From Kiritimatiellia bacterium (GTDB taxonomy: Bacteria; Verrucomicrobiota; Kiritimatiellia; RFP12; UBA1067), in the NCBI GenBank assembly GCA_017563185.1, contig JAFXIL010000037.1:1-53051 (forward strand): a DNA stretch of 53,051 bases, given 5' to 3'. Under the pieces are notes generated by a model, which saw only the letters and a list, made by a program, of their open reading frames with translations, was not told where the DNA came from and made no database searches. Shown here piece by piece: positions 1 through 35,006 of this stretch (the stretch's first letter is position 1; each line of letters begins with the position of its first letter). The position numbers and the translations under genes were made by a program.

Positions 1-93
1 ATACCCGTTCCCATTCCGAACACGGAAGTCAAGCGCCTCATCGCCGAGGGTAGTGCGGGACCCGCCCGCGCGAGAGTAGGACGCCGCCGGCTC
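1..93 (+). rRNA. rrf: 5S ribosomal RNA, 3' part (5' end outside window)
   Basis: The conserved 5S internal segment CCATTCCGAACACGGAAGT is present, followed by the loop-E region and the 3' arm CGAGAGTAGG. About the first 25 bases lie outside the window. A run of eight T starts at 95, directly after the 3' end, and looks like the end of an rRNA operon. No other rRNA is visible. Confidence 0.93.
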
Positions 94-21985: not shown

Positions 21986-22597
21986 ATGGAGATTTATTTC
22001 CTTAGACATGGCGAGACCGAGTGGAACCGCGAGCGGCGCATTCAGGGCTCAACGGCGTGGACCGACCTCACGGATGAGGGCGTGCGCCTCGCCGAGGCGG
22101 CGCTGGGCGGCATGCTCGCGCGGGGGCTGGCCTTTGACCGCATTTTCTCCAGTCCCTACCGACGCGCCATGCACACGGCGCAGATAATCGGCGCGGGATT
22201 CGGCGTGGAGCCGGTGGCGGACGAAAGGCTGTGCGAGATTTCGTTCGGGCCCTACGAGGGAACGCGCTACGGCGAGGGGCTTTTTGTGGACGACAACATC
22301 CGCGCCTGCTTCCAGGATCCGCCCCGCTACGTGCCCCGTGACGGCGCGGAGTCGTTCGAGTCAGTCGCGGCGCGCGTGCGCGATTTCATTGACCGCGAGC
22401 TCGCCCCTCTCTCCGCCACATGCTCGCGCGTGCTCGCCGTGGCGCATGGCGGCATTCTGCGCACAGTGCTGGGGTTTGCCATGAACCGTCCCCTCGCCGA
22501 CTTCTGGAAGGGCACTCAGCCCAACTGCTGCGCCCACGTCGTCACGCTCACCGACGGCATGCTTTCCCTCAAGGCCCGCGCCGTCGTATTCGGGTAG
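21986..22597 (+). CDS. Histidine phosphatase (phosphoglycerate-mutase-like) superfamily protein
   Basis: 203 residues. The catalytic RHGETEWN box is at residues 7-14, and the second histidine is in VLAVAHGGILR. FSSPYRRAMHTAQI and the acidic residue in LCEISFGPYEG complete the phosphate pocket. The family includes cobalamin phosphatases (CobC), phosphoglycerate mutases and broad phosphatases; the substrate cannot be assigned here. It precedes the Ser/Thr kinase gene by 14 bases and probably shares its transcript, so a role in the same regulatory unit is possible but unproven. Confidence 0.88.
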   Translation: MEIYFLRHGETEWNRERRIQGSTAWTDLTDEGVRLAEAALGGMLARGLAFDRIFSSPYRRAMHTAQIIGAGFGVEPVADERLCEISFGPYEGTRYGEGLFVDDNIRACFQDPPRYVPRDGAESFESVAARVRDFIDRELAPLSATCSRVLAVAHGGILRTVLGFAMNRPLADFWKGTQPNCCAHVVTLTDGMLSLKARAVVFG

Positions 22598-22611
22598 GAA
22601 AGGAGGTTGAC

Positions 22612-23727
22612 ATGTCAGATATATCAACACAGTCAATTCGAATTTTTACTCCAGGGCAGAAGATCGGCGCGTATCGTATAGTGCGTCTTCTCGGTCAGGG
22701 CGGAATGGGCGCCGTCTATGAAGTGGAGCATGAGCAGCTCGGCGTTCGCTACGCTCTCAAGGCGTTCGCGACGCACAGCAAATACGCCGACATGCTCAAG
22801 AAGAAGTTCCTCGCGGAAGGAAGGGTGCTCGCGAGGCTGCGCCACCCTCATCTCATACGCGTCTTCGATCTCGCGATAGACGAGCCGACAGGAGTGCCGT
22901 ACTTCGTGATGGACATCGTGACGTACAAGGACGGCACGCAGCACACCCTCGATGATCTGGAGCTGGGCGATCTTGAAGAGGACTACATCCTCGGCTGGTT
23001 CGAGGATCTCTGCAAGGCGCTCGACTATATCCACGAACAGGGCATAGTGCACCGCGACATCAAGCTCGGCAACGTCCTTCTGCGGGAGGATAGGCACGTG
23101 ATGCTGTCCGACTTCGGTGTCTTGCGCATCTTCGACGAGGGTCTTTCAAAGGGTGTCAGCGTGGTGCGGACAGCCGTTTCGGAGGCGGGGTCTGAAGCTC
23201 GGCTCGTCATGGGCACCGGAGGCTACATCGCGCCCGAAGTGCGGCGCGGCGAAGATGCCACGCCCGAAGCCGACGTCTATTCCCTTGGCGTCATGTTCTT
23301 CCATCTGCTCACGGGACTCTGGTATGAGCCAGGTACAAGGGCGCTTGCTCTGCTCGACAATTTCAAATACCGTTGGGGCGATGTTCTGCCGCGAATGCTC
23401 TCCGCAAATCCGCAGGAACGTCCTGTGCCGCTTTCAGATCTGCCGCGCAAGCTGCGGGAGTCCAGAGCCTCTGAAGCCACCACTGTGGCGAAGGAGGAAA
23501 CGCCCCCCGCTCGATTTGGCATGTTCAGGCCAAAGTACATTGCTGCGGCTGTTGCCGTTCTGTGCGTTGCGGTCGCCGTGTTTGTGGCGGTGGCGCTTCG
23601 TCCGCAGGCTGAAGAGCAGCCGCATGGGGAGCAGGTGGCCAAGTGGCCGATTCCGCCGGAGCAGGATGATTTTCGCGAGTTGTTTTCAGCAGATGACGTG
23701 TTTAGTCCCAAGGAGGTCGCACGATGA
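22612..23727 (+). CDS. Transmembrane Ser/Thr protein kinase (PknB-like)
   Basis: 371 residues, started at the ATG preceded by AGGAGG (22601-22606). The kinase domain covers about 20-290: glycine loop LLGQGGMGAVYEVE, catalytic lysine K50, HRD at 147-149 followed by IKLGNVLL, DFG at 167-169, and APE in GYIAPEVRRGE. One membrane helix (about 309-330) is followed by only about 40 residues outside, with no PASTA or other sensor domain. The stop codon overlaps the start of the sigma factor gene (ATGA at 23724), so the two are translationally coupled. This pairing suggests that the kinase controls the sigma factor or its regulon. Confidence 0.93.
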   Translation: MSDISTQSIRIFTPGQKIGAYRIVRLLGQGGMGAVYEVEHEQLGVRYALKAFATHSKYADMLKKKFLAEGRVLARLRHPHLIRVFDLAIDEPTGVPYFVMDIVTYKDGTQHTLDDLELGDLEEDYILGWFEDLCKALDYIHEQGIVHRDIKLGNVLLREDRHVMLSDFGVLRIFDEGLSKGVSVVRTAVSEAGSEARLVMGTGGYIAPEVRRGEDATPEADVYSLGVMFFHLLTGLWYEPGTRALALLDNFKYRWGDVLPRMLSANPQERPVPLSDLPRKLRESRASEATTVAKEETPPARFGMFRPKYIAAAVAVLCVAVAVFVAVALRPQAEEQPHGEQVAKWPIPPEQDDFRELFSADDVFSPKEVAR

Positions 23728-24335
23728 GCGAATCCTCTCAGATGAACGTGTTTCCTGTTACCTCGCAGACGCTCCTTCAGAAGCTCGCCGCCCAGATTAC
23801 CGGCGAACGTGAGTCGGCATGGGTGCGGTTTTTCGGTCTGTACGAGCCGGCGATCAAGCGGTTTGTGACATACCATGACAGCGACCACGACCCTGAAGAC
23901 GTGGCGCAGGAAATCTTCCTGAAGCTCGTAAACGTCGTGAAGTCAGGCGGATATAGTCCGACGAAGGGAAGATTCAGGGCGTTTCTCGCCACGATGATCA
24001 GGCGGCATCTCGTTTCGCTCTACAGAAAGGACCAGGCACGCGGGGCGGGGATGTTTGTGGACATTGACGAAGTGGAGCTGACCGTGCCGCCGGACATTGC
24101 GGAGCAGATAGACGCCAAATGGCGGATGGCCCGGCATCAGAGCGCGATTGAACATGTGCTCACGAAGACGGCGATTTCGGCGCAGTCGCGCGCTATCTAC
24201 CGCGCATACGTTGAAGACGAAATGCCGCTGGAGGAAGTGTCCGCGCGATTCGGCGTCACCAAGGCGGCAATATACAAGATCAAGTCGCGCGTTGAGCAGA
24301 TGGCCGCGATCGTTGAGGAAGAGTTTGAAGACTAG
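23724..24335 (+). CDS. RNA polymerase sigma factor of the sigma-70/ECF type
   Basis: 203 residues. Region 2 is recognisable (about 30-105: LYEPAIKRFVTYHDSDHDPEDVAQEIFLKLV ... FRAFLATMIRRHLVSLYRK). Region 4 follows after a spacer (about 155-195: AIYRAYVEDEMPLEEVSARFGVTKAAIYKIKSRV). Regions 1 and 3 are missing, as in ECF factors. No anti-sigma factor is encoded beside it; the coupled upstream kinase occupies that position. This resembles kinase-linked ECF groups of Planctomycetes and relatives. The next gene, for a secreted SUMF protein, starts 21 bases after the stop. Confidence 0.92.
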   Translation: MSESSQMNVFPVTSQTLLQKLAAQITGERESAWVRFFGLYEPAIKRFVTYHDSDHDPEDVAQEIFLKLVNVVKSGGYSPTKGRFRAFLATMIRRHLVSLYRKDQARGAGMFVDIDEVELTVPPDIAEQIDAKWRMARHQSAIEHVLTKTAISAQSRAIYRAYVEDEMPLEEVSARFGVTKAAIYKIKSRVEQMAAIVEEEFED

Positions 24336-24356
24336 AACACACACGAAAAGAACGAG

Positions 24357-25586
24357 ATGAAGTGTGCGAGAATAGTGCTTGTATTGCTGGCGGCATTTGC
24401 GTCGATTGCGAACGCGATGCCAACGCCGGAGCAGGCCAAGAAGGCGGAGCCGTTGGTTTTGAAGCTGATGGGCGAATGCCAGGCCGCGCTCAAGAGCGGT
24501 GCGAAGACGCGCACGGAGGTGGCAGAATCGGCAATGGCTCTCGCTGAAAAGGCGGAATCCGAGGCTGCCAAGCTCCTGTTGATGAAAGGCGCGTACAACC
24601 TCTACGTGCGTGCGGGCGAGTTCAACAAGGCCGTTGATGCGCTCAAGCGTCTCCAGGCGGCGATACCCGACATTCCTCCGGACAACATGGCCAACATAGT
24701 CAAGGCCTCGCTTCGCGGTGTTCCGAGCGGGGAATTCGGGCGGCTAGCTCAGATTCTGGATGCCGGCGGTAGGACCTACTGCATCATCGACCTCTCAGGA
24801 GGTCCCTCGGCAACATCATATCCGGTCTCGTATGTCTCGACAGCTCCAGGAGGCACGTTCAACACCGACGAATACAAGACCACGAAGCTCGTGCTGCGCC
24901 GCATCGAGCCGGGCGAGTTCATCATGGGCGGAGACCAGAAAGACGAGACCCACCGCGTCAAGATATCGAAGCCATTCTACATCGGCGTCTTCGAGGTAAC
25001 GCAATCGCAGTACGCCCTTGTGACGGGCAATAATCCGTCAAGATTCAAGGGTGGCATGCGCCCTGTGGAGAGAGTTTCGTACAATATGATACGCGGTTCA
25101 TCGGATGGGGCGCAGTGGCCGTTGTCGTCTGCTGTTGATTCGTATTCGTTCATGGGCAGGCTTCGTGCTTGCACGGGATTGGATTTTGATCTTCCTACAG
25201 AAGCGCAATGGGAGTTTGCCTGCCGTGCTGGCACGAAGAGCAAGTACAACAACGGCGGCGAGACAGAGGATGATTTGAAGAAGGTTGGTCGATGTGTAAA
25301 AAGGTCGAAGCATCCGGCGGTTGTTGGTTCATATTTGCCGAATGCATGGGGACTATATGACATGCATGGCAATATGTGGGAATGGTGTCTTGACTGGAAT
25401 GGTGCGTTGACATTCGGGATGGATCCCAAGGGGGCCTCCTCTGGGACTGATCGGGTTTTTCGTGGTGGCGGGTGGAGCAATGTCATGGCGTCATTTTGCA
25501 CTTCGTTCTTCAGGGGCCGCAACATCCCGTCTTACAGGGGCGACAACGGTGGTTTCCGCCTTGCCCTGCCCCTGTCTGGCCAATAG
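24357..25586 (+). CDS. Secreted SUMF protein with N-terminal helical domain
   Basis: 409 residues with a signal peptide (ending ASIANA). Residues about 22-125 form a helical, TPR-like domain (EAAKLLLMKGAYNLYVRAGEFNKAVDALKRL) that recurs in the protein at 27535. Residues about 140-405 are a SUMF domain (VLRRIEPGEFIMGGDQ, VTQSQYALVTGNNPSRF, DLPTEAQWEFACRAGT, GLYDMHGNMWEWCLDW, ending GGFRLALP). The last segment lacks the paired active-site cysteines of true formylglycine-generating enzymes, so a catalytic role is doubtful. The gene follows the kinase and sigma genes on the same strand with a short gap, and is probably an output or sensor of that unit. Its SUMF domain is very close to that of the giant protein at 29253. 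Confidence 0.85.
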   Translation: MKCARIVLVLLAAFASIANAMPTPEQAKKAEPLVLKLMGECQAALKSGAKTRTEVAESAMALAEKAESEAAKLLLMKGAYNLYVRAGEFNKAVDALKRLQAAIPDIPPDNMANIVKASLRGVPSGEFGRLAQILDAGGRTYCIIDLSGGPSATSYPVSYVSTAPGGTFNTDEYKTTKLVLRRIEPGEFIMGGDQKDETHRVKISKPFYIGVFEVTQSQYALVTGNNPSRFKGGMRPVERVSYNMIRGSSDGAQWPLSSAVDSYSFMGRLRACTGLDFDLPTEAQWEFACRAGTKSKYNNGGETEDDLKKVGRCVKRSKHPAVVGSYLPNAWGLYDMHGNMWEWCLDWNGALTFGMDPKGASSGTDRVFRGGGWSNVMASFCTSFFRGRNIPSYRGDNGGFRLALPLSGQ

Positions 25587-25760: not shown

Positions 25761-26978
25761 ATGACAAGACGATGGCTTGAAAATCAATTAGTTGACATGA
25801 TGAACGTGCGAAGAGGCGTCAACCTCACGGGCGTTCGTCAATCGGGTAAGACAACATTGGCGGGGATGGTCAAATTGCCGAAAGTCCGCCACTACACAAT
25901 GGACGACAAGGAGATCCGGCGGTCTGCCGCAGATGATCCCAAGGGATTCGTCAAACATTCCAAAGGAGAAACGCTCGTCATTGACGAGGTGCAGAAGGTT
26001 CCCGATTTGCTGGATGCCATCAAAATCGTACTCGACGGCAACAATGATCATGGCCAGTATCTGCTGACCGGGAGTTCCAATCTGCGTTTTATCAAGGCCG
26101 TGAGGGACTCCCTTGCCGGACGTCTGGGCTGGTTGCGGCTTCGCACCTTGTCCTTGGGCGAAATGTGCGGAAACGGACATAGCTTTCTTGCCTCGGCGTT
26201 CAGCAGGGGCTTCAAGAGCGAATACCCTGAAATCGACAAAAGGCAGGCCATAGGACTCGCCTTCCGCGGCGGTTATCCCGAACCGCTGGATTACTCGACG
26301 AAAGACAGGCGCGATTGGTTCAAGACCTATTTGAACGACCTACTGACAAAGGACATCCACGATGTCACCGAAGTGAGGAAGCTTTCCGTTCTCAAGACTG
26401 CGGCCACATGGCTTCTTTCACATTCCTCGCAGTTTTTCGCGCTTGACGAGCTGGCCACCAAGACGGCGCTGGCGAAGGAGACGGCGAACTCCTATCTTGA
26501 GGCATTGAAGGCCCTTTACCTGTTTGACTGCGTCCCTGCGTATGCGGCAACGGACTACGGGCTTGTGGGCAAGCGCCCAAAATGGATTGTGACTGATGCC
26601 GCTCTCATGGCCAACATACTTGACTGGAACGAGGATGACGTGTATCTCGACCAGAACCGCAGCGGGAAACTGATCGAAACATGGGTCTATCAACAACTCG
26701 CCGCGATTGCGGAAGCCGACGGCGACTGCGAGATTTCCCATTACAGGGACGGGAAGAAGCGGGAGATCGATTTCATGGTCAAACGCGAGGACGGTGCGCT
26801 TCTTGGCATTGAAGTGAAATCTGGTTCTGTTTCCTCAAGCGACTTCACCCACCTGAAGTGGTTTGCTGCCAATCTTGCCGAGAAGCAATTTACTGGTATC
26901 GTCATCCATTCGGGAAAGGACGTTCTCCCCTTCGGCGATGGTTTCTACGCCGTGCCGTTTTCTGCCCTTTCAGAGTAG
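25761..26978 (+). CDS. AAA_14/DUF4143 ATPase, copy 1
   Basis: 405 residues, with AAGGAG before the ATG. An N-terminal P-loop ATPase (Walker A GVRQSGKTT at 24-32, Walker B LVIDEVQK at 71-78, sensor LLTGSSNLRF) is followed by the DUF4143 region. The end is a PD-(D/E)XK-like nuclease fold (REIDFMV near 334-340, IEVKSG near 350). Proteins of this family are widespread, often in accessory regions; their cell function is not established. It has its own promoter. It is followed at once by the remnant of a Deg9-type protease gene, so its arrival may have disrupted that gene. Its sequence is only distantly like copy 2 at 36278. Confidence 0.88.
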   Translation: MTRRWLENQLVDMMNVRRGVNLTGVRQSGKTTLAGMVKLPKVRHYTMDDKEIRRSAADDPKGFVKHSKGETLVIDEVQKVPDLLDAIKIVLDGNNDHGQYLLTGSSNLRFIKAVRDSLAGRLGWLRLRTLSLGEMCGNGHSFLASAFSRGFKSEYPEIDKRQAIGLAFRGGYPEPLDYSTKDRRDWFKTYLNDLLTKDIHDVTEVRKLSVLKTAATWLLSHSSQFFALDELATKTALAKETANSYLEALKALYLFDCVPAYAATDYGLVGKRPKWIVTDAALMANILDWNEDDVYLDQNRSGKLIETWVYQQLAAIAEADGDCEISHYRDGKKREIDFMVKREDGALLGIEVKSGSVSSSDFTHLKWFAANLAEKQFTGIVIHSGKDVLPFGDGFYAVPFSALSE

Positions 26979-27424: not shown

Positions 27425-27534
27425 ATAGCGTGCGGCAGCGCTATAATATTTTGAATTTCTTGTGTCAAAAGTCAGTCCACAATGCGATTCTTTTTTATAG
27501 GTAGGATTCCCGCCGAGGAAAGGAAAGATTTACG

Positions 27535-29208
27535 ATGACGTGTGCCAAGATAGTGCTGGCAGGGCTTGTCGCCATAGTGGCGACGGCGTCTGCGTGGCCG
27601 CCGCCCGACGAGGTGGCGAAGACGAAGCCGATCGTGGACGAACTGATGTCCGCGAAGGGCGCGCTCGCGCCTGCAGACAAGGCCGAGGCGGCGAGCGCGT
27701 TTGCGGAGGAGGCGAATGGCGAGGCCGCGAAGTACCTGCTTCTGCGCAGGGCGGTGGAACTGTACGCGAAGGCGGGCGACGACGGGAGGACGGCTGACGC
27801 CTTCCAGAAGCTGGTCAAGGACGTGAAGGACGTGCCGCCCGCCGTTCAGGAGCGCATTCTGCTCGATGCGGGGCGCACGCTCGCGAAGAGGGTTCGTCCG
27901 CTGAGGACCGAGGCGCTCTTCAAGGGCGTTCGTGCGCTCGTTTGGGCCGAGAAGGAGCTTGCGGCGGCGCGCATGGAGCTGACGGGATCGAAGAAGGACG
28001 ATCCCGCCGCCAATCTGCGCGCAGGCAACGCGCTCGCCGTGCTGGGCGACTGGCCGAAGGCTCTTGAGCATCTGTGCGGCGCACAGGGCAAGATAGCGTC
28101 CGTCGCGGACCATGAGATCAACAGCACCGTGACTGCGGACAAGCTCGCCAACGCCTGGTGGAAGGCGTCTGCGGCAACGGAGAGCGATTACGTGAAGAAC
28201 GCGTACCGTCGGCACTCCGTCGAACTATACCGCAAGGCGCTTGAGGCAGACCTCCTCGTGGGACTTAACAAGACCCTCGCCGAGAACCGGATCGCCGAGT
28301 TTGAGAAGGCGGACGACTTGTCTGCTGGATCTGCCGCTGGAGTCACATCGGGAGCGGCGCGTCCCGTTGCGGCCACTGAGAGAACGAGTTCCAAGCTGGT
28401 CATTGTCGCGCAGAACAACACGTCAGATGTCAAATACAAGTTCAACTACAGGCTTGACACCAATGGCAATGCCATTCTGTGCGGTAATCCTTGCGTCAGT
28501 CCGAAACCGGAGGGTGAACTTGTTGTGCCGGATAAGATTGACGGCCACACAGTCACAAAGATTGACGATATGGCTTTCATCGGTTGCGATAAGATGACGA
28601 GCATTATACTCCCTCCGCACCTAGAGGAAATCATTACAACATGGTTTGGGAGGCGCTGTTCCGGTGCCATATTTGAGCACTGCTTTGCGCTTGCATCCAT
28701 AGATATTGCAAAAACCAATCCGAGATTCACATCGGAGAATGGAGCACTTTACACTAAGGACAAGAAATGGTTGGGCGCATATCCGAAAAACCGCAGTGAA
28801 ATAACTCTGGCGCGGGAAACTACGGGCGTAGGGGCGAATGCGTTCAACAGCTGCATGTTCAAGACGGTAAAAATTCCTGATTCTGTTGAGGGCATTAATT
28901 TCTGGGCGTTTAGAAAGTGTCCAAATCTGGAGGTCGTGGAGTTTCCCAAGAACTTCAAAGGTTATATAGGGGCCTATGTTTTCGATTCCTGTCCGGAAAT
29001 GAAGAAGGTTGTATTCTACGGTGACGCCCCTGCCATTGGCGTCCGTCGCACTAAAGCAAGGCCGAACCTGTTCTGGGCTTCGCCCAATGGCATCGTGGTT
29101 GAGGTCAGGAAAGGCACTAGGGGATGGAAAGGGAAAGGCTCTACCGAGCTCCCAGAGTTCTGGCCACTTGAGGGCAACCCTAAACGCCGCATCCGATACA
29201 TTCCGTGA
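27535..29208 (+). CDS. Secreted BspA-type leucine-rich-repeat protein with N-terminal helical domain
   Basis: 557 residues, signal peptide ending ATASA, GAGGAAAGGAAAG leader upstream. The first about 270 residues are helical. Residues 20-110 (EAAKYLLLRRAVELYAKAGDDGRTADAFQKLV) match the N-terminal domain of the SUMF protein at 24357; similar domains are fused to effector modules in many planctomycetal proteins. Residues about 330-530 hold BspA/LRR_5 repeats (DKIDGHTVTKIDDMAFIGCDKMTSIILPPHL; GANAFNSCMFKTVKIPDSV; FRKCPNLEVVEFPKNF). Such LRRs mediate surface binding. There is no anchor motif. It is probably secreted and shares its promoter with no neighbour. Confidence 0.85.
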   Translation: MTCAKIVLAGLVAIVATASAWPPPDEVAKTKPIVDELMSAKGALAPADKAEAASAFAEEANGEAAKYLLLRRAVELYAKAGDDGRTADAFQKLVKDVKDVPPAVQERILLDAGRTLAKRVRPLRTEALFKGVRALVWAEKELAAARMELTGSKKDDPAANLRAGNALAVLGDWPKALEHLCGAQGKIASVADHEINSTVTADKLANAWWKASAATESDYVKNAYRRHSVELYRKALEADLLVGLNKTLAENRIAEFEKADDLSAGSAAGVTSGAARPVAATERTSSKLVIVAQNNTSDVKYKFNYRLDTNGNAILCGNPCVSPKPEGELVVPDKIDGHTVTKIDDMAFIGCDKMTSIILPPHLEEIITTWFGRRCSGAIFEHCFALASIDIAKTNPRFTSENGALYTKDKKWLGAYPKNRSEITLARETTGVGANAFNSCMFKTVKIPDSVEGINFWAFRKCPNLEVVEFPKNFKGYIGAYVFDSCPEMKKVVFYGDAPAIGVRRTKARPNLFWASPNGIVVEVRKGTRGWKGKGSTELPEFWPLEGNPKRRIRYIP

Positions 29209-29252
29209 TTAGTGTAGGCGTGGACGTGAAGAGTGATAGAAAGGAAGAAATC

Positions 29253-32200
29253 ATGTCAATTGAAAAAGTTCTTGATGTAAAGTCGTATGCGGGGAATCCG
29301 CACGTAGGGTTTGATGAGGGAGAGATTGTATCGGCAGCAACGCCTCGTCGCGGGTTCTTACATTGCAAACTCAGAAAAATCATCACACGTACAGTTGCTT
29401 TGGCGCTATGTTTAATAACTGTAATGGAAGCGATGGCGGCTGATATTCGTTGGGATGCCCCATCATCTGTTAAAGTTGGACAGACATTTTATGTTAGGGC
29501 ATATTATAATTCAATCAAGGCGTCTGTGTGGGTGGATGCATCTGCAAGCAGTGGTTCGGTTTGGGAATGGGATGCTGCCGACCAGTATAAGGCGGCAACA
29601 GCGGGAAGCGTAACATTCTATTTTCAATACGATGTAGGTTCCCAGAGATATACAAGCAAGAAAGTCGTGACGATTCAAGGGGATTCGCAACCTGAGCAAC
29701 CGACATTAGGATCTGTAAGCATATCGCTTTCTTCGTCGTCTGTAGCTCCAGGTGATGCGGTGTCATGTTCGCTTAATGCGTATTCAACCACAGGGGCTTC
29801 CATTACTGGTGGTACTAAATCATGGAAAGTGTCTAGTACCACGAACGACACCATTTCCTCTTCTGGCGTTGTAACCGTTGCCGCCGCCCAGATTTCACGG
29901 AAGATTTCCGTTACTGGAAGTTATACGTATGGAGGGGTCACTAAGAGTGCTACGGCGACAATCACTGTCACGCGATTGCCGATAGCCTTGGCTAGCATTA
30001 GATTGATTGCGCCGTCATATCGTGTTACACCTGGCACTCAGATTCCTGTTTCTTTGGAAGCTGATTCTGTCTATGATGGTCCCATAACAGACGGTGTAGC
30101 AAGTTGGAGAGTGATTCCCACGGAGTTTGGTGATTCTGTGTCTACAGATGGGATTGTTTCCATTTCAAGCACGAACGTAAATCGTGTGGTTAAGATAGCA
30201 TGCGATTATTCATTTGACGGTATTACAAAATCGGATACGATAGAAGTACAAGTAAGGAGTAGATATGATGCGCGAGCAAATGTAATTGCGGACTACGTGG
30301 ACGAGAACAACGAAGAGTATCAGGCTCTCAACTATATTGAGGCGACTGGTAACCAATGGATAGTAACGGACATCAGACCAACCTGCACTGATATGGTTAA
30401 GATGAAGGTTCGGATCTCCTCAATTTCAAAAACTCAGGCGCTCTATTGTTCGCGGACAACGAGGACTTCTAACACTTTTACGGCGTTTCTTATTAATAGT
30501 GTTGTGCGGTGTGATCGTAATACGAATACTTCTACCACGGGGAATACCGTGCCAAGTGTTATGGAAGACACCTCTCTCGTAGCAGACTACTATACGCGTA
30601 GCTTCTCCGTCAATGGCGTAGAGCAAAATGCCCTTATGGCAGACGGTAACTATACGCCAGGCAGCGCATTGATGCTATTCGCAAGCAACACGAAGGGCGA
30701 TGCTCTTTCCATGGACATCGTTCCTGGCGATGTTGACAATAAGGCTACGTATAGGCTGTACTATTTTGAGCTTTATTCTCATGGCAGTCAATCGCCTAAA
30801 CATCGACTCGTGCCTGCACGCCGTATATCCGACTCCGTTGTAGGTCTTTATGACACCATTTGGGGAGAGTTCTACGGTCCTGCCGACAATTCAGACGAGT
30901 TTGTTCCTAGTCCATACACTACAGACGTAAAAGCACTCCAACGGTATCCATGGAGCGGGAAGGTTGACATTACTTATACCGTGTTCGGAAACTTTATGGA
31001 AAATGCGCAACAAAATGCATCGGTGGCCTCGTTAAAAGTGACAGCGACGGACAGGGATGCGAACATGACTTATATCGCAACGCAGTTGTCGGGAGACTTG
31101 AGTTTGGCAGAGGGCACGCATGCCATCGTCTGGGACATGGATGCGGAGGGATTGTCACTCAAGTCCACAAATGTTGTATTCGAAGTTTCATGTGTAATGG
31201 CTCCCGCGATCTATTGCGTGATTGACCTTTCTATGGGTGCGAATGCGACATCTTACCCCGTTACATACTTGTCCACTCCACCGGGTGGAGGTTTCAATGT
31301 GGATGAGTACAAGACCACAAAACTCGTATTGCGACGAATTGAGGCGGGGACATTCATTATGGGTGACGATCAATCGGATGAATCGCATCGTGTTACGCTT
31401 ACTAAGCCGTTCTTCTGTGGACTCTTTGAAGTAACGCAGAAGCAATATTCTCTCATCACTGGGGGCAATCCGTCTAACTTCTCCGGCGACAAGAGGCCGG
31501 TAGAGCAAGTGAGCTATAGTACGATTCGCGGGACATCAGATGGCGCGAACTGGCCATCTTCCTCTGCCGTGGACTCGTCGTCGTTCTTGGGAAAGTTGCG
31601 TGCCAGAACTGGACTTGATTTCGACCTGCCCACGGAAGCACAATGGGAGTACGCCTGTCGTGCAGGAACGACTACGACATACAGTTTTGACGATTCGGAG
31701 GATGGAAACTACTACATGTGGGCTTATTTCAATTCCGATTCACAGTCACACGATGTGGGGACGAAGAATCCGAATCCGTGGGGGTTCTTCGATATGCACG
31801 GCAATGTGTGGGAATTGTGTTTGGACTGGTTCGGAGAACTGTCTGCGGGGACGGATCCAAAGGGTTCTTCCTCTGGATCGGCTCGGGTGAAACGCGGTGG
31901 GTCCTGGACCAGCAAGGTGGCTAACAGCACTTCGTCTGCCCGATACCAACACGGGCCGTCTGTGGAGGAAGACACAGTGGGCTTTCGCCTTGTCAGAACT
32001 TTGCCAAGTGATAGCGAGAGCTCCGCCATCGTTCTTTGTGATGGGAAGAGCGCGGTTACAGAGGTGTCGATTTCCACAAGTGGAGACTATCCAACTGAAG
32101 TGACGATTGGCGATAAGACCCATGTATATTGCTATGATGTGGATGGTGGCGTCGGAATTGTACAGACGGGAATAGGAGCGGTTGATTCATCGCTTGACAT

Positions 32201-35006
32201 CCCGTCCGCAATCGACAACAAGCCTCTTGTGGCAATTGGGCACTATGCCTTCGTTGACTGTGGCGACATTGAGATGGTGGTTATTCCCGCCTCTGTTGCG
32301 GAGATTGGGGATTTCGCCTTTGCCGGATGCAGCAACCTTTCGCAAGTGACGATTTCTGGCGACATCGGAACGTTGACAATTGGCGGCAATGCCTTTGACG
32401 CCGTAACGGAAGTGGTGATTGGAGATAAGCAGGGCTATGAGTTTTCCGGATGGACGAATGAAGTGGGGTACGTGGTGTCCAATCCGTTTCATTCTGCATC
32501 TGCTGTTACGGTGTCTCCGGTCTGGCAGAGAACTGAAACGACGGTGATTGATGGGCGCACATGGACAGTTGTGGTTTCAGACAAGGGAGTAGCGACAATC
32601 GGAAATGGCAACGATGTCGCCGTTGACCCTGCGCCGATAGGCGATTTGGCGATTCCTGGAGAAATTTGTGGTTGCTCAGTGACAGGAATTGGCGGCAATG
32701 CATTCGCGGGATGTGAAGGATTGACGAGCATAACGATTCCAAGCAATGTGACAAGTGTTGGCTATGGAGCATTTGAGGATTGCACCGGGCTGACGAACGT
32801 TGTCATTGAGTCTGAGTCGCTTGATTGCATAATGCCTGGATTGATGCAGGCGAAGTTCGATACACGATTTGATGTGACGTCACTAGACGATGCAAGCGAT
32901 GTGGCGAATGTGTCAGGTGTGATTGCTGCGTACATGAGGGTGACGGAAAGTCCGTGGGAATTCTCTGATCCTCTGAATGGCAAGGTGTTTGCATGGAACG
33001 AAACGAATTCGACATTCGCCTATCGGGGACAGATGTATCTAGATGCGGACAAGACCTATGTGTTCGGTACGCATTTTGACAATGATGCGTGTGTGCAGAT
33101 TGACGGTGCCACTATAGTGAATGCCGACAATTCTACTAGCAGAGAAATTCACACTGGCAAGTTTAAATGTTCCCGTTCCGGGTGGTACGGCATTGAATTT
33201 CGTTTCAGTGATGACTATGCCCAGAAGGGGGCGTGGGGAAACCTCTGGACTGCCGATTTTGGTATTGGCTATCGTGACGATGGAAGTGTGGAAACGGTAC
33301 AAAGCGGGTGGAAGCGCCTTCTTGATCCTGGCGACGGGTCGCTTTTCAGATGCGATGGCTTGCGCACGATATTCGCAGGATGCAGTAACATAGTTTCCGT
33401 GACGATGCCGTTGCCGCTTGTTTCGCGGATGTCGTCGATGTTTCCGGGTTCATACGACAAAGTGGCGTCCATCACACTGACAGGCGCTGCGACTGCGATT
33501 CCCGAGAAGGCGTTCGCTGGATGTACGAACCTGGCCAATGTAACGCTGCCGCGAGAAACCAGGACGGTTACCGTGGGTGCAAATGCTTTTGATGCGACGA
33601 CTGCAGTTGGCATAGAGCCTGTTGACGGGTATTTCTTTGGAGGCTGGACAAATACCGTTGGCGTGGTCGTTGCCGATCCGTTCCACTCTGCAGATACAGT
33701 GACGGTGTCTCCATGGTGGCGGAAGATAGTGAACGTCGGCTACGATGCAAATGGTGGTTATGGCGAAATGGCGACGCAGACGGTGATCGAAGGGGATTCT
33801 CTGTCGCTTTCCGCCAATGCGTTTGCGCGTGACGGATATTCGTTCATGGGGTGGAGCCTTTCTGTGGGAGGCGAGGTGGCATATCCGGACATGGCTGAGT
33901 TTGCGAAAGTATCCGCAAAAATGGACGGTGTGGTTCTGTATGCGGTATGGAAACCGCAGCCACCCGTGATTTCGCTGGAAGGCGGAGCGGAGTTCCAGAA
34001 CGCCTCGCGCTTCGTATCGCTTTCATGTGACACCGGCGACGCGCTGATTCTGTTCACGAATGACGGCGGCGATCCAAGAGCGTCTGGACACGTATACAAA
34101 GACCCGATATACATATACGGAACATGCACGCTCAGGGCCGTTGCATGTGGCGCTGGACACTATTCCGACGAGGTGTCTGCCACTTTGACCCGCACCGAGG
34201 GGCTGAGCGAGGCGGCAAACCTCTACGGATATCTGATGGAAACTGACGAGGATAGTCCATGGACGATAGTGACTGATGTCTCGCGCGACGGCGTCTCAAG
34301 CGTGCGAAGCGGAACGGTTGGCCATGGCGGCATGACGTGGCTTCAGACGTCCGTACGCAAGGCGGGCACGATCTCGTTCTGGTGGCGGGCGGCGTGCGAG
34401 GACGCAGAGGATGAGGAGGGCGAGACATATTGGTACGACTATGGCTCTTTCGCTGTTGACGGCGTGGAGAAGGCAAGAATTGCAGGCAACGACACTGGCT
34501 GGCGCAAGATTGAGGTGGACGTGCCAACCGGCGGCAAGCACGTGCTACGCTGGGAATACTGCAAGGACGGCGCGGCATCCTACTCGCCGGACTGCATCTG
34601 GCTTGACCAGGTGCAGTGGGTTCCCGCCGACGGAAGCGGCTACACGTTGACCACTCCCGATCCTGTCCCCTACACGTGGCTTTCGGCCTGGGGCCTGGGA
34701 TTGGATTCCGATTTCGAGACGGCGGCAAGGCAGACAAGCGGCAAGCATGATGCGAACGGACGCCCCATCGCCGTGTGGGAAGACTACGTTGCGGGAACCG
34801 TCCCCACGGATGCGAACGACTTGTTCCGCGCAATAATCTCCATGCAGGACGACGGCCCCCATATCTCCTGGACACCCAATCTCAACACCAACGGCGAGGT
34901 GCGCGTCTACAGGGTGTGGGGCAAGGCGGACTTGAAGGACTCGGCCTGGACGTATCCCGCGAATCCCACGCACCGTTTCTTCAAGGTGACGGTGGAATTG
35001 CCGTGA
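29253..35006 (+). CDS. Giant mosaic surface protein: Ig-like, LamG-like, SUMF, LRR, PA14, InlB and CHB_HEX modules
   Basis: 1917 residues from the ATG after GAAAGGAAG. The signal helix is unusual, starting only at about residue 43 after a 40-residue polar extension (mature start near ADIRW). Order: three Ig-like domains (63-345); LamG-like domain (356-551, NYIEATGNQWIVTDI); the KVDITYTV module (560-648); SUMF (650-920); LRR_5 repeats (930-1190); PA14-like (1193-1353); more LRR; InlB/Flg_new repeat (VGYDANGGYG...YSFMGWS, about 1490-1570); CHB_HEX-like (1570-1650); a MAM-like jelly roll (1663-1797); and a C-terminal module ending RFFKVTVELP. Up to about 33950 the gene is AT-richer than its surroundings; after that the GC content rises. 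It is probably assembled by domain shuffling. The C-terminal module may be a sorting signal. Confidence 0.85.
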   Translation: MSIEKVLDVKSYAGNPHVGFDEGEIVSAATPRRGFLHCKLRKIITRTVALALCLITVMEAMAADIRWDAPSSVKVGQTFYVRAYYNSIKASVWVDASASSGSVWEWDAADQYKAATAGSVTFYFQYDVGSQRYTSKKVVTIQGDSQPEQPTLGSVSISLSSSSVAPGDAVSCSLNAYSTTGASITGGTKSWKVSSTTNDTISSSGVVTVAAAQISRKISVTGSYTYGGVTKSATATITVTRLPIALASIRLIAPSYRVTPGTQIPVSLEADSVYDGPITDGVASWRVIPTEFGDSVSTDGIVSISSTNVNRVVKIACDYSFDGITKSDTIEVQVRSRYDARANVIADYVDENNEEYQALNYIEATGNQWIVTDIRPTCTDMVKMKVRISSISKTQALYCSRTTRTSNTFTAFLINSVVRCDRNTNTSTTGNTVPSVMEDTSLVADYYTRSFSVNGVEQNALMADGNYTPGSALMLFASNTKGDALSMDIVPGDVDNKATYRLYYFELYSHGSQSPKHRLVPARRISDSVVGLYDTIWGEFYGPADNSDEFVPSPYTTDVKALQRYPWSGKVDITYTVFGNFMENAQQNASVASLKVTATDRDANMTYIATQLSGDLSLAEGTHAIVWDMDAEGLSLKSTNVVFEVSCVMAPAIYCVIDLSMGANATSYPVTYLSTPPGGGFNVDEYKTTKLVLRRIEAGTFIMGDDQSDESHRVTLTKPFFCGLFEVTQKQYSLITGGNPSNFSGDKRPVEQVSYSTIRGTSDGANWPSSSAVDSSSFLGKLRARTGLDFDLPTEAQWEYACRAGTTTTYSFDDSEDGNYYMWAYFNSDSQSHDVGTKNPNPWGFFDMHGNVWELCLDWFGELSAGTDPKGSSSGSARVKRGGSWTSKVANSTSSARYQHGPSVEEDTVGFRLVRTLPSDSESSAIVLCDGKSAVTEVSISTSGDYPTEVTIGDKTHVYCYDVDGGVGIVQTGIGAVDSSLDIPSAIDNKPLVAIGHYAFVDCGDIEMVVIPASVAEIGDFAFAGCSNLSQVTISGDIGTLTIGGNAFDAVTEVVIGDKQGYEFSGWTNEVGYVVSNPFHSASAVTVSPVWQRTETTVIDGRTWTVVVSDKGVATIGNGNDVAVDPAPIGDLAIPGEICGCSVTGIGGNAFAGCEGLTSITIPSNVTSVGYGAFEDCTGLTNVVIESESLDCIMPGLMQAKFDTRFDVTSLDDASDVANVSGVIAAYMRVTESPWEFSDPLNGKVFAWNETNSTFAYRGQMYLDADKTYVFGTHFDNDACVQIDGATIVNADNSTSREIHTGKFKCSRSGWYGIEFRFSDDYAQKGAWGNLWTADFGIGYRDDGSVETVQSGWKRLLDPGDGSLFRCDGLRTIFAGCSNIVSVTMPLPLVSRMSSMFPGSYDKVASITLTGAATAIPEKAFAGCTNLANVTLPRETRTVTVGANAFDATTAVGIEPVDGYFFGGWTNTVGVVVADPFHSADTVTVSPWWRKIVNVGYDANGGYGEMATQTVIEGDSLSLSANAFARDGYSFMGWSLSVGGEVAYPDMAEFAKVSAKMDGVVLYAVWKPQPPVISLEGGAEFQNASRFVSLSCDTGDALILFTNDGGDPRASGHVYKDPIYIYGTCTLRAVACGAGHYSDEVSATLTRTEGLSEAANLYGYLMETDEDSPWTIVTDVSRDGVSSVRSGTVGHGGMTWLQTSVRKAGTISFWWRAACEDAEDEEGETYWYDYGSFAVDGVEKARIAGNDTGWRKIEVDVPTGGKHVLRWEYCKDGAASYSPDCIWLDQVQWVPADGSGYTLTTPDPVPYTWLSAWGLGLDSDFETAARQTSGKHDANGRPIAVWEDYVAGTVPTDANDLFRAIISMQDDGPHISWTPNLNTNGEVRVYRVWGKADLKDSAWTYPANPTHRFFKVTVELP

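Follow-up and report, generated by a model that had tools for sequence, protein, structure and literature searches.

A candidate split receptor kinase paired with an ECF-type sigma factor in gut Kiritimatiellia

Among the extracytoplasmic function (ECF) sigma factors of Planctomycetes, groups ECF59, ECF61, ECF62 and ECF217 are linked to Ser/Thr protein kinases (STPK) (PMC8999054). In Xanthomonas citri, the membrane Hanks-type kinase PknS phosphorylates its neighbouring ECF sigma factor EcfK (ECF43), and removing the periplasmic tetratricopeptide repeat (TPR) region of PknS activates its autophosphorylation (PMC13147305). A unit related in design is found in a Kiritimatiellia bacterium (assembly GCA_017563185.1), on contig JAFXIL010000037.1, whose whole length of 53,051 nucleotides is called the window here. 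It consists of a membrane Ser/Thr kinase, an ECF-type sigma factor and a secreted protein in which a helical N-terminal domain (Nhel) carries a SUMF-type tip (Table 1). Read from the sequences, the unit is marked by the coupling of its genes, a conserved motif in the kinase tail, homology between Nhel and the ectodomains of sister kinases, swapping of the tip, and a private, conserved promoter-like site. We give a probability of roughly 0.55 to the reading that it is a self-contained switch for surface proteins built on a split receptor kinase.

Like the STPK-linked groups of Planctomycetes, with which it was compared by description and not by group model, the window sigma factor lies beside a Ser/Thr kinase gene, has no anti-sigma gene and keeps an acidic motif in region 2.2 (PMC8999054). 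The putative secreted split-ectodomain partner, the conserved kinase tail and the private promoter-like site are features of the window unit that were not found described for those groups in the literature searched. PknS–EcfK likewise places a membrane kinase beside an ECF sigma factor, and the helical TPR ectodomain of PknS resembles the design of Nhel; however, the TPRs of PknS are in cis on the outer side, whereas the TPR-like domain of the window unit is on a separate secreted protein, the EcfK group has an altered 2.2 motif, and the output of PknS–EcfK is a type VI secretion system (PMC13147305). The papers searchable gave no prior account of a split receptor or a private promoter, and nothing on sigma factors of Kiritimatiellota or on leucine-rich repeats (LRR) in rumen Kiritimatiellae.

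Kinase, sigma factor and secreted partner

The window corresponds to contig C180 in a genome of 3.2 Mb that is 97% complete, and its named relatives are Kiritimatiellae of ruminant and horse guts, some of whose records are labelled Lentisphaerae or Verrucomicrobia. All genomes used are metagenome assemblies with predicted gene starts. The 80 loci compared come from 58 genomes of the family together with a single scan of named genomes, and with duplicates removed they comprise 65 distinct kinase–sigma units; loci L008-L037 have only about 1.5 kb of flank each.

The initial annotation of the window had described a membrane kinase almost devoid of an external domain, coupled through ATGA to an ECF-like sigma factor without an anti-sigma gene, and a secreted SUMF protein with a helical N-terminal domain 21 bases further on. 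All of this holds: the outer tail is 43 amino acids (aa) long, no anti-sigma gene adjoins the kinase–sigma pair, and 21 bases separate the sigma gene from that of the secreted protein. The kinase has both HRD and DFG in the alignment and a single transmembrane segment, as in Hanks-type receptor kinases, with nothing but the tail as its outer part; basic residues before this segment and fewer after it fit an N-in/C-out orientation. The secreted protein comprises a 20-aa signal-peptide-like start (24357-24416), Nhel (24417-24761) and the SUMF tip (about 24903-25565). The 4-base overlap of kinase and sigma genes is kept in 52 of the 65 distinct units, more than chance would give.

In the sigma factor, the TIGR02937 match spans residues 32-190 and Sigma70_r2 is matched at E 2e-9. 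It has the two-domain architecture of an ECF factor (domains 2 and 4 only), the region 4 match being weak (E 0.01), and its place beside a Ser/Thr kinase without an anti-sigma gene puts it among STPK-linked ECFs in the broad sense. The 2.2 motif reads DPED in the window protein, and the two key positions are D/E in 97-98% of the 65 sigma factors. An N-terminal FPxTSxTLL motif includes Thr13, which is invariant (65/65), and position 16 is Ser or Thr in 95%. This conservation makes the two positions the first candidate phosphosites, of which Thr13 appears the best candidate.

Further related kinase–sigma pairs occur in the same genome on contigs C53, C3, C205, C177, C78 and C164, with a fragment on C95. 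Downstream of the pair, C53 and C3 each encode a secreted protein that has its first ~135 residues (Nhel) in common with the window protein and another ending, a diverged SUMF on C53 and a BspA-type LRR on C3. The annotation had made its case depend on a gene order conserved beyond close strains, and relatives of the sigma factor are indeed present in 10 of the 19 genera sampled within the family, with much weaker scores in other families. A sampling of 338 genomes across the phylum brought up Nhel in 11, all from the family of the window. In a comparison of mapped places, six genomes with Nhel hold 26 copies, of which 20 lie within 3 kb of a sigma factor of this group, and three genomes without such a sigma factor had no Nhel. 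The order may be kinase–sigma–Nhel (window, C53, C3 and many others) or kinase–Nhel–sigma (L088-L093), or Nhel may stand upstream of kinase–sigma (L073, L074); the set of genes is stable while their order shifts. By sequence comparison, the constant downstream element is thus the ~115-aa helical Nhel domain and not SUMF, which the annotation had taken as the defining partner and which is one of several swappable tips.

Two more distant units of the window genome, L004 (C177) and L006 (C78), have the sigma gene before the kinase gene, and the C177 kinase has HGD in place of HRD. At L050, L064 and L046, at least two Nhel genes with differing tips lie close together, as if heads were stored beside the unit.

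The outer part of the kinase and the exchangeable tip

By their outer parts, the kinases fall into those with short tails, those with long ectodomains (115-142 aa) and those fused to LRR_5 (L029, L031, L033), the direct joining of LRR_5 to the kinase being a Pfam match in L029 and L033. Short tails mostly end in a motif like DDFxxAFxxxGIYE (core DDFxxxF). An Nhel gene lies within 3 kb in 27 of 33 units with a motif-bearing short tail, in 0 of 18 with a long ectodomain and in 0 of 3 with an LRR fusion. In the kinase tree, kinases of the long class group in a single clade, and the LRR fusions fall among the short-tail kinases.

Long ectodomains carry a motif PxFDxLxxIP, followed by a linker and then PSRxxFExAxIDAWVLTHxxxxDLxxGxITxEKA. 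An hhalign comparison with Nhel gives a match over 67-68 columns at 93% probability (E 3e-7, score 46), and its first column coincides with the mature N-terminus of Nhel; control profiles reach 8-13 when reversed or column-shuffled and 13-21 when unrelated. In an hmmsearch of the Nhel profile against the kinases, each match scores about 5 bits (E 0.05-0.6), and the top ten are all long-tail kinases. The claim of homology rests on the profile-profile comparison. The long class would thus hold a tail-type motif and an Nhel-like domain in one chain, and in the window class the chain would end after the motif and the domain be secreted apart. This one-chain and two-chain arrangement provides a fusion/fission argument for contact between the tail and Nhel. 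It treats the motifs of short tails and long ectodomains as the same thing, a reading made by eye and not from a scored alignment. The secreted Nhel protein looks like a detached and re-tipped kinase ectodomain, i.e., one part of a split receptor. The predicted structure of Nhel has six helices (pLDDT 84), and in VIA-align a mixed set of helical repeats matches it with Z up to 8.8, which is informative no further than 'helical, TPR-like'.

Units of the long-ectodomain class often continue with a different partner, a conserved membrane protein of 225-240 aa whose gene overlaps or lies a few bases off (L083:5654-6376, L075, L079, L080, L026); it belongs to no Pfam family and ends near HPCWADTAWILD.

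The modules behind Nhel vary by locus and match FGE-sulfatase, LRR_5, or both with a thioredoxin-like domain in Pfam; certain tips match no Pfam family. Loci L092 and L093 are 95% identical in the kinase, 97% in the sigma factor and 93% in Nhel, with 34% in the tip, and the corresponding values for L040 and L038 are 86, 90, 81 and 26%. Divergence of the tip between otherwise near-identical loci suggests that SUMF is one among several heads on a constant stem.

The SUMF tip of the window shares with SUMF1/FGE its Pfam family and fold, and its closest solved structure is the Treponema variable protein TvpA (2y3c; E 1e-22). The active-site cysteines of human FGE are Cys336 and Cys341. In the alignment, the window tip has Asn at the first position and Cys at the second, so it does not have both active-site cysteines that define FGE, and FGE catalysis is unlikely. 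Together with the resemblance to TvpA, this makes a binding role of the tip likely and favoured over catalysis. With the variable proteins of diversity-generating retroelements (DGR), such as TvpA, the unit shares a binding fold and varying tips; the difference is that variation here occurs by whole-domain exchange. A role of SUMF as a DGR target was rejected, as no match to the reverse transcriptase family PF00078 was found in the 97%-complete genome.

Promoter-like sites at Nhel genes

In a comparison of the stretches ahead of Nhel genes, close relatives of the window unit show a promoter-like site (M1) that begins 13 bases past the sigma stop, ahead of the Nhel start. The window genome was searched for it by pattern, and its single copy stands 44 bp before a second Nhel gene of the window, at 27535, which encodes a protein with an LRR tip and overlaps the giant SUMF/LRR gene at 29205 by 4 bases. 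The suggestion of the annotation that a target motif of the sigma factor might lie upstream of SUMF/LRR genes is borne out by this place. M1 was first seen in a list that also contained the 27535 gene and was therefore retested with a matrix made from five relatives alone, which scored 34.4 bits at 27460 of the window against 9.9 at the next best place. With at most one mismatch, six genomes have a single M1 each and a seventh has two, and the backwards-read control occurs in none. The second M1 of the seventh genome (one mismatch; L039:8235-8672), 2.6 kb after the sigma gene, precedes a gene whose 121-aa product has an FHA domain (Pfam E 4e-17); this protein is likely a phosphothreonine reader for the same pathway, in keeping with kinase signalling.

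A sister clade has a different site (M2), GGGAGATTTG-N9-TGCGTATA, which occurs 1-2 times per genome and always at the unit (controls 0) among eight genome entries, of which G055/G382 and G045/G385 are probably the same genomes, leaving about six independent. M2 lies ahead of Nhel, ahead of the first gene after sigma or, once, ahead of a SUMF-like gene. In this clade, a gene of ~336 codons (MKMTLVSVTSSWLCATGVA...) without a Pfam family follows the sigma gene (L046:5694-6704, L047, L124, L131) and carries the site directly upstream. In relatives (L038-L042 and L046), an inverted repeat CCGCCGA ... TCGGCGG flanks the TGCGATTC block of M1 (e.g., L038:5617-5665); it is absent at the window site and is possibly a hairpin or an operator.

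No M1 (at most one mismatch) and no M2 (at most two mismatches) precedes the kinase genes, and the aligned kinase upstream regions share no motif. Autoregulation of the kinase–sigma operon was rejected on these grounds, and the unit departs in this respect from the classical ECF pattern of positive autoregulation, which is predicted for just about 55% of ECFs (PMC8103513).

Table 1. Features of the unit and its surroundings in the window
Feature	Position	Strand	Evidence and remarks
Histidine phosphatase (CobC-like)	21986..22597	+	His_Phos_1 E 2e-42; same gene run, outside the conserved unit
Membrane Ser/Thr kinase, 371 aa	22612..23727	+	Pkinase E 3e-39; cytoplasmic kinase domain, single transmembrane segment, short outer tail
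Kinase outer tail, 43 aa	23596..23724	+	Conserved motif DDFRELFSADDVF at 23665-23703; short-tail kinases of other related units keep the motif
ECF-type sigma factor, 203 aa	23724..24335	+	TIGR02937 E 3e-17; ATGA overlap with the kinase stop
Secreted Nhel-SUMF protein, 409 aa	24357..25586	+	FGE-sulfatase E 6e-34
M1 promoter-like site TGTCAAA-N13-TGCGATTC	27463..27490	+	Sole copy in the 3.2-Mb genome; proposed target of the window sigma factor
Secreted Nhel-LRR protein, 557 aa	27535..29208	+	LRR_5 E 3e-18; Nhel profile E 2e-34
Giant SUMF/LRR protein, 1933 aa from GTG start	29205..35006	+	FGE-sulfatase E 1e-32, LRR_5 E 1e-31

The phosphatase gene, 14 bases before the kinase gene, had been counted as part of the operon unit; it was rejected as a member because a scan of the 80 other loci, with about 1.5 kb of flank in L008-L037, turned up no relative. 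Genes for AAA_14/DUF4143-like ATPases (e.g., window 25761-26978 and L002:3925-5133) recur near the units and are probably unrelated; as unit members they were rejected, lying within 4 kb of just 7 of 65 units. At the contig edge, window positions 1-92 hold the end of a 5S rRNA gene (Rfam, 50.4 bits).

Proposed mechanism and alternatives

In the split-receptor reading, the kinase would sit in the inner membrane with its short tail outside, and an Nhel protein would most likely dock on the tail motif as an exchangeable receptor head whose SUMF or LRR part is the tip that binds a ligand. A signal received there would alter kinase activity, and the kinase would phosphorylate the co-translated sigma factor, with Thr13 as the candidate site. 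The sigma factor would then read a private promoter before Nhel genes, its targets in the window being the gene at 27535 for the Nhel-LRR protein and the giant gene that overlaps it, and would in this way govern the display of receptor heads together with that of associated surface proteins. The Nhel-LRR protein is proposed to be both a regulon member and an alternative receptor head, and the giant SUMF/LRR protein to be a regulon member. From the anatomy of the unit, we infer docking, phosphorylation, the direction of signalling and promoter activity. The annotation had left the secreted protein as either sensor or regulon member. It may be both: the homology of its N-terminal domain to sister-kinase ectodomains speaks for the sensor, and the placing of such genes behind a promoter-like site speaks for the regulon member.

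Several points weigh against this reading. The association between tail and Nhel comes mainly from one large clade of the kinase tree, so that the counts are not independent and a Fisher value overstates their independence. The Nhel fold has no clear match in the PDB (Foldseek best E 0.31). Three of the six Nhel genes of the window genome are not directly beside a kinase–sigma pair (27535, at 3.2 kb, and those on C67 and C138). The Nhel gene at 24357 has no M1 site of its own within three mismatches, nor do those of the C53 and C3 units, so its expression would depend on the kinase–sigma transcript. The conservation of M1 among relatives is partly plain relatedness, and the diverged context of the 27535 gene is the strongest evidence for the site. 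Lastly, in ECF43 uncharged residues, among them a phosphorylated Thr, take the place of the acidic 2.2 motif, as in the PknT–EcfP step (PMC8999054). With its 2.2 motif acidic by sequence, the window sigma factor cannot simply be activated by this step; the known ECF43 (EcfP/EcfK-type) mechanism does not carry over and was rejected.

Promoter-like sites ahead of Nhel genes, a giant SUMF/LRR protein co-regulated by position and the existence of orphan Nhel genes would also suit Nhel proteins that are output only. They would then be surface proteins, or an envelope anchor or stem, switched on by the pair and without a signalling role, the kinase sensing another cue such as membrane state or its own dimerisation. 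We regard this as unlikely, although it is the alternative that fares best. It does not account for the homology of Nhel to the ectodomain of sister kinases or for LRR fused to kinases, and the Nhel genes of the window, C53 and C3 lie in the kinase–sigma transcript without a site of their own, as expected of a signalling partner. Less probable again is a feedback inhibitor, in which Nhel would bind the tail and hold the kinase off, sigma-driven Nhel would close a negative loop and ligand contact at the tip would release it. The anatomy is identical to that of the split receptor, the sigma target is likewise an Nhel gene and PknS offers a precedent for an inhibitory ectodomain (PMC13147305), but the sequence says nothing on the sign of the Nhel effect.

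It is improbable that the kinase and sigma factor are paired and the secreted gene is an ordinary neighbour carried along by recent common descent. The confinement of Nhel to one family and of most units to one clade would agree with this, but the set persists while gene order changes, Nhel occurs with these sigma factors far more often than not, and its profile is homologous to a kinase ectodomain. Least probable is an operon that controls sulfatase maturation through a sulfatase-activating FGE: the strong Pfam match of the tip would favour it, but Asn replaces Cys336 and orthologous units bear LRR instead of SUMF.

Sigma factors activated by kinases form a poorly understood branch of the ECF family, and the signal of the kinase is unclear even in the best-studied pairs. 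For one such sigma factor, the sequences now point to a receptor head, the motif on which it would dock, a candidate phosphosite and a promoter as target, which opens signal, transmission and output to separate tests with few genes. A broader view, which we put at slightly under even odds, is that a split receptor kinase with a freely exchanged tip is joined to a dedicated sigma factor that drives little beyond receptor-head genes through a private promoter, giving insulated sense-and-display cassettes, several per genome, with a promoter code for each clade. If true, the split receptor would be a bacterial route to altering what a receptor recognizes without touching the kinase or the sigma factor. 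The promoter-like sites also provide an initial promoter code for the sigma factors of a gut lineage that is uncultured.

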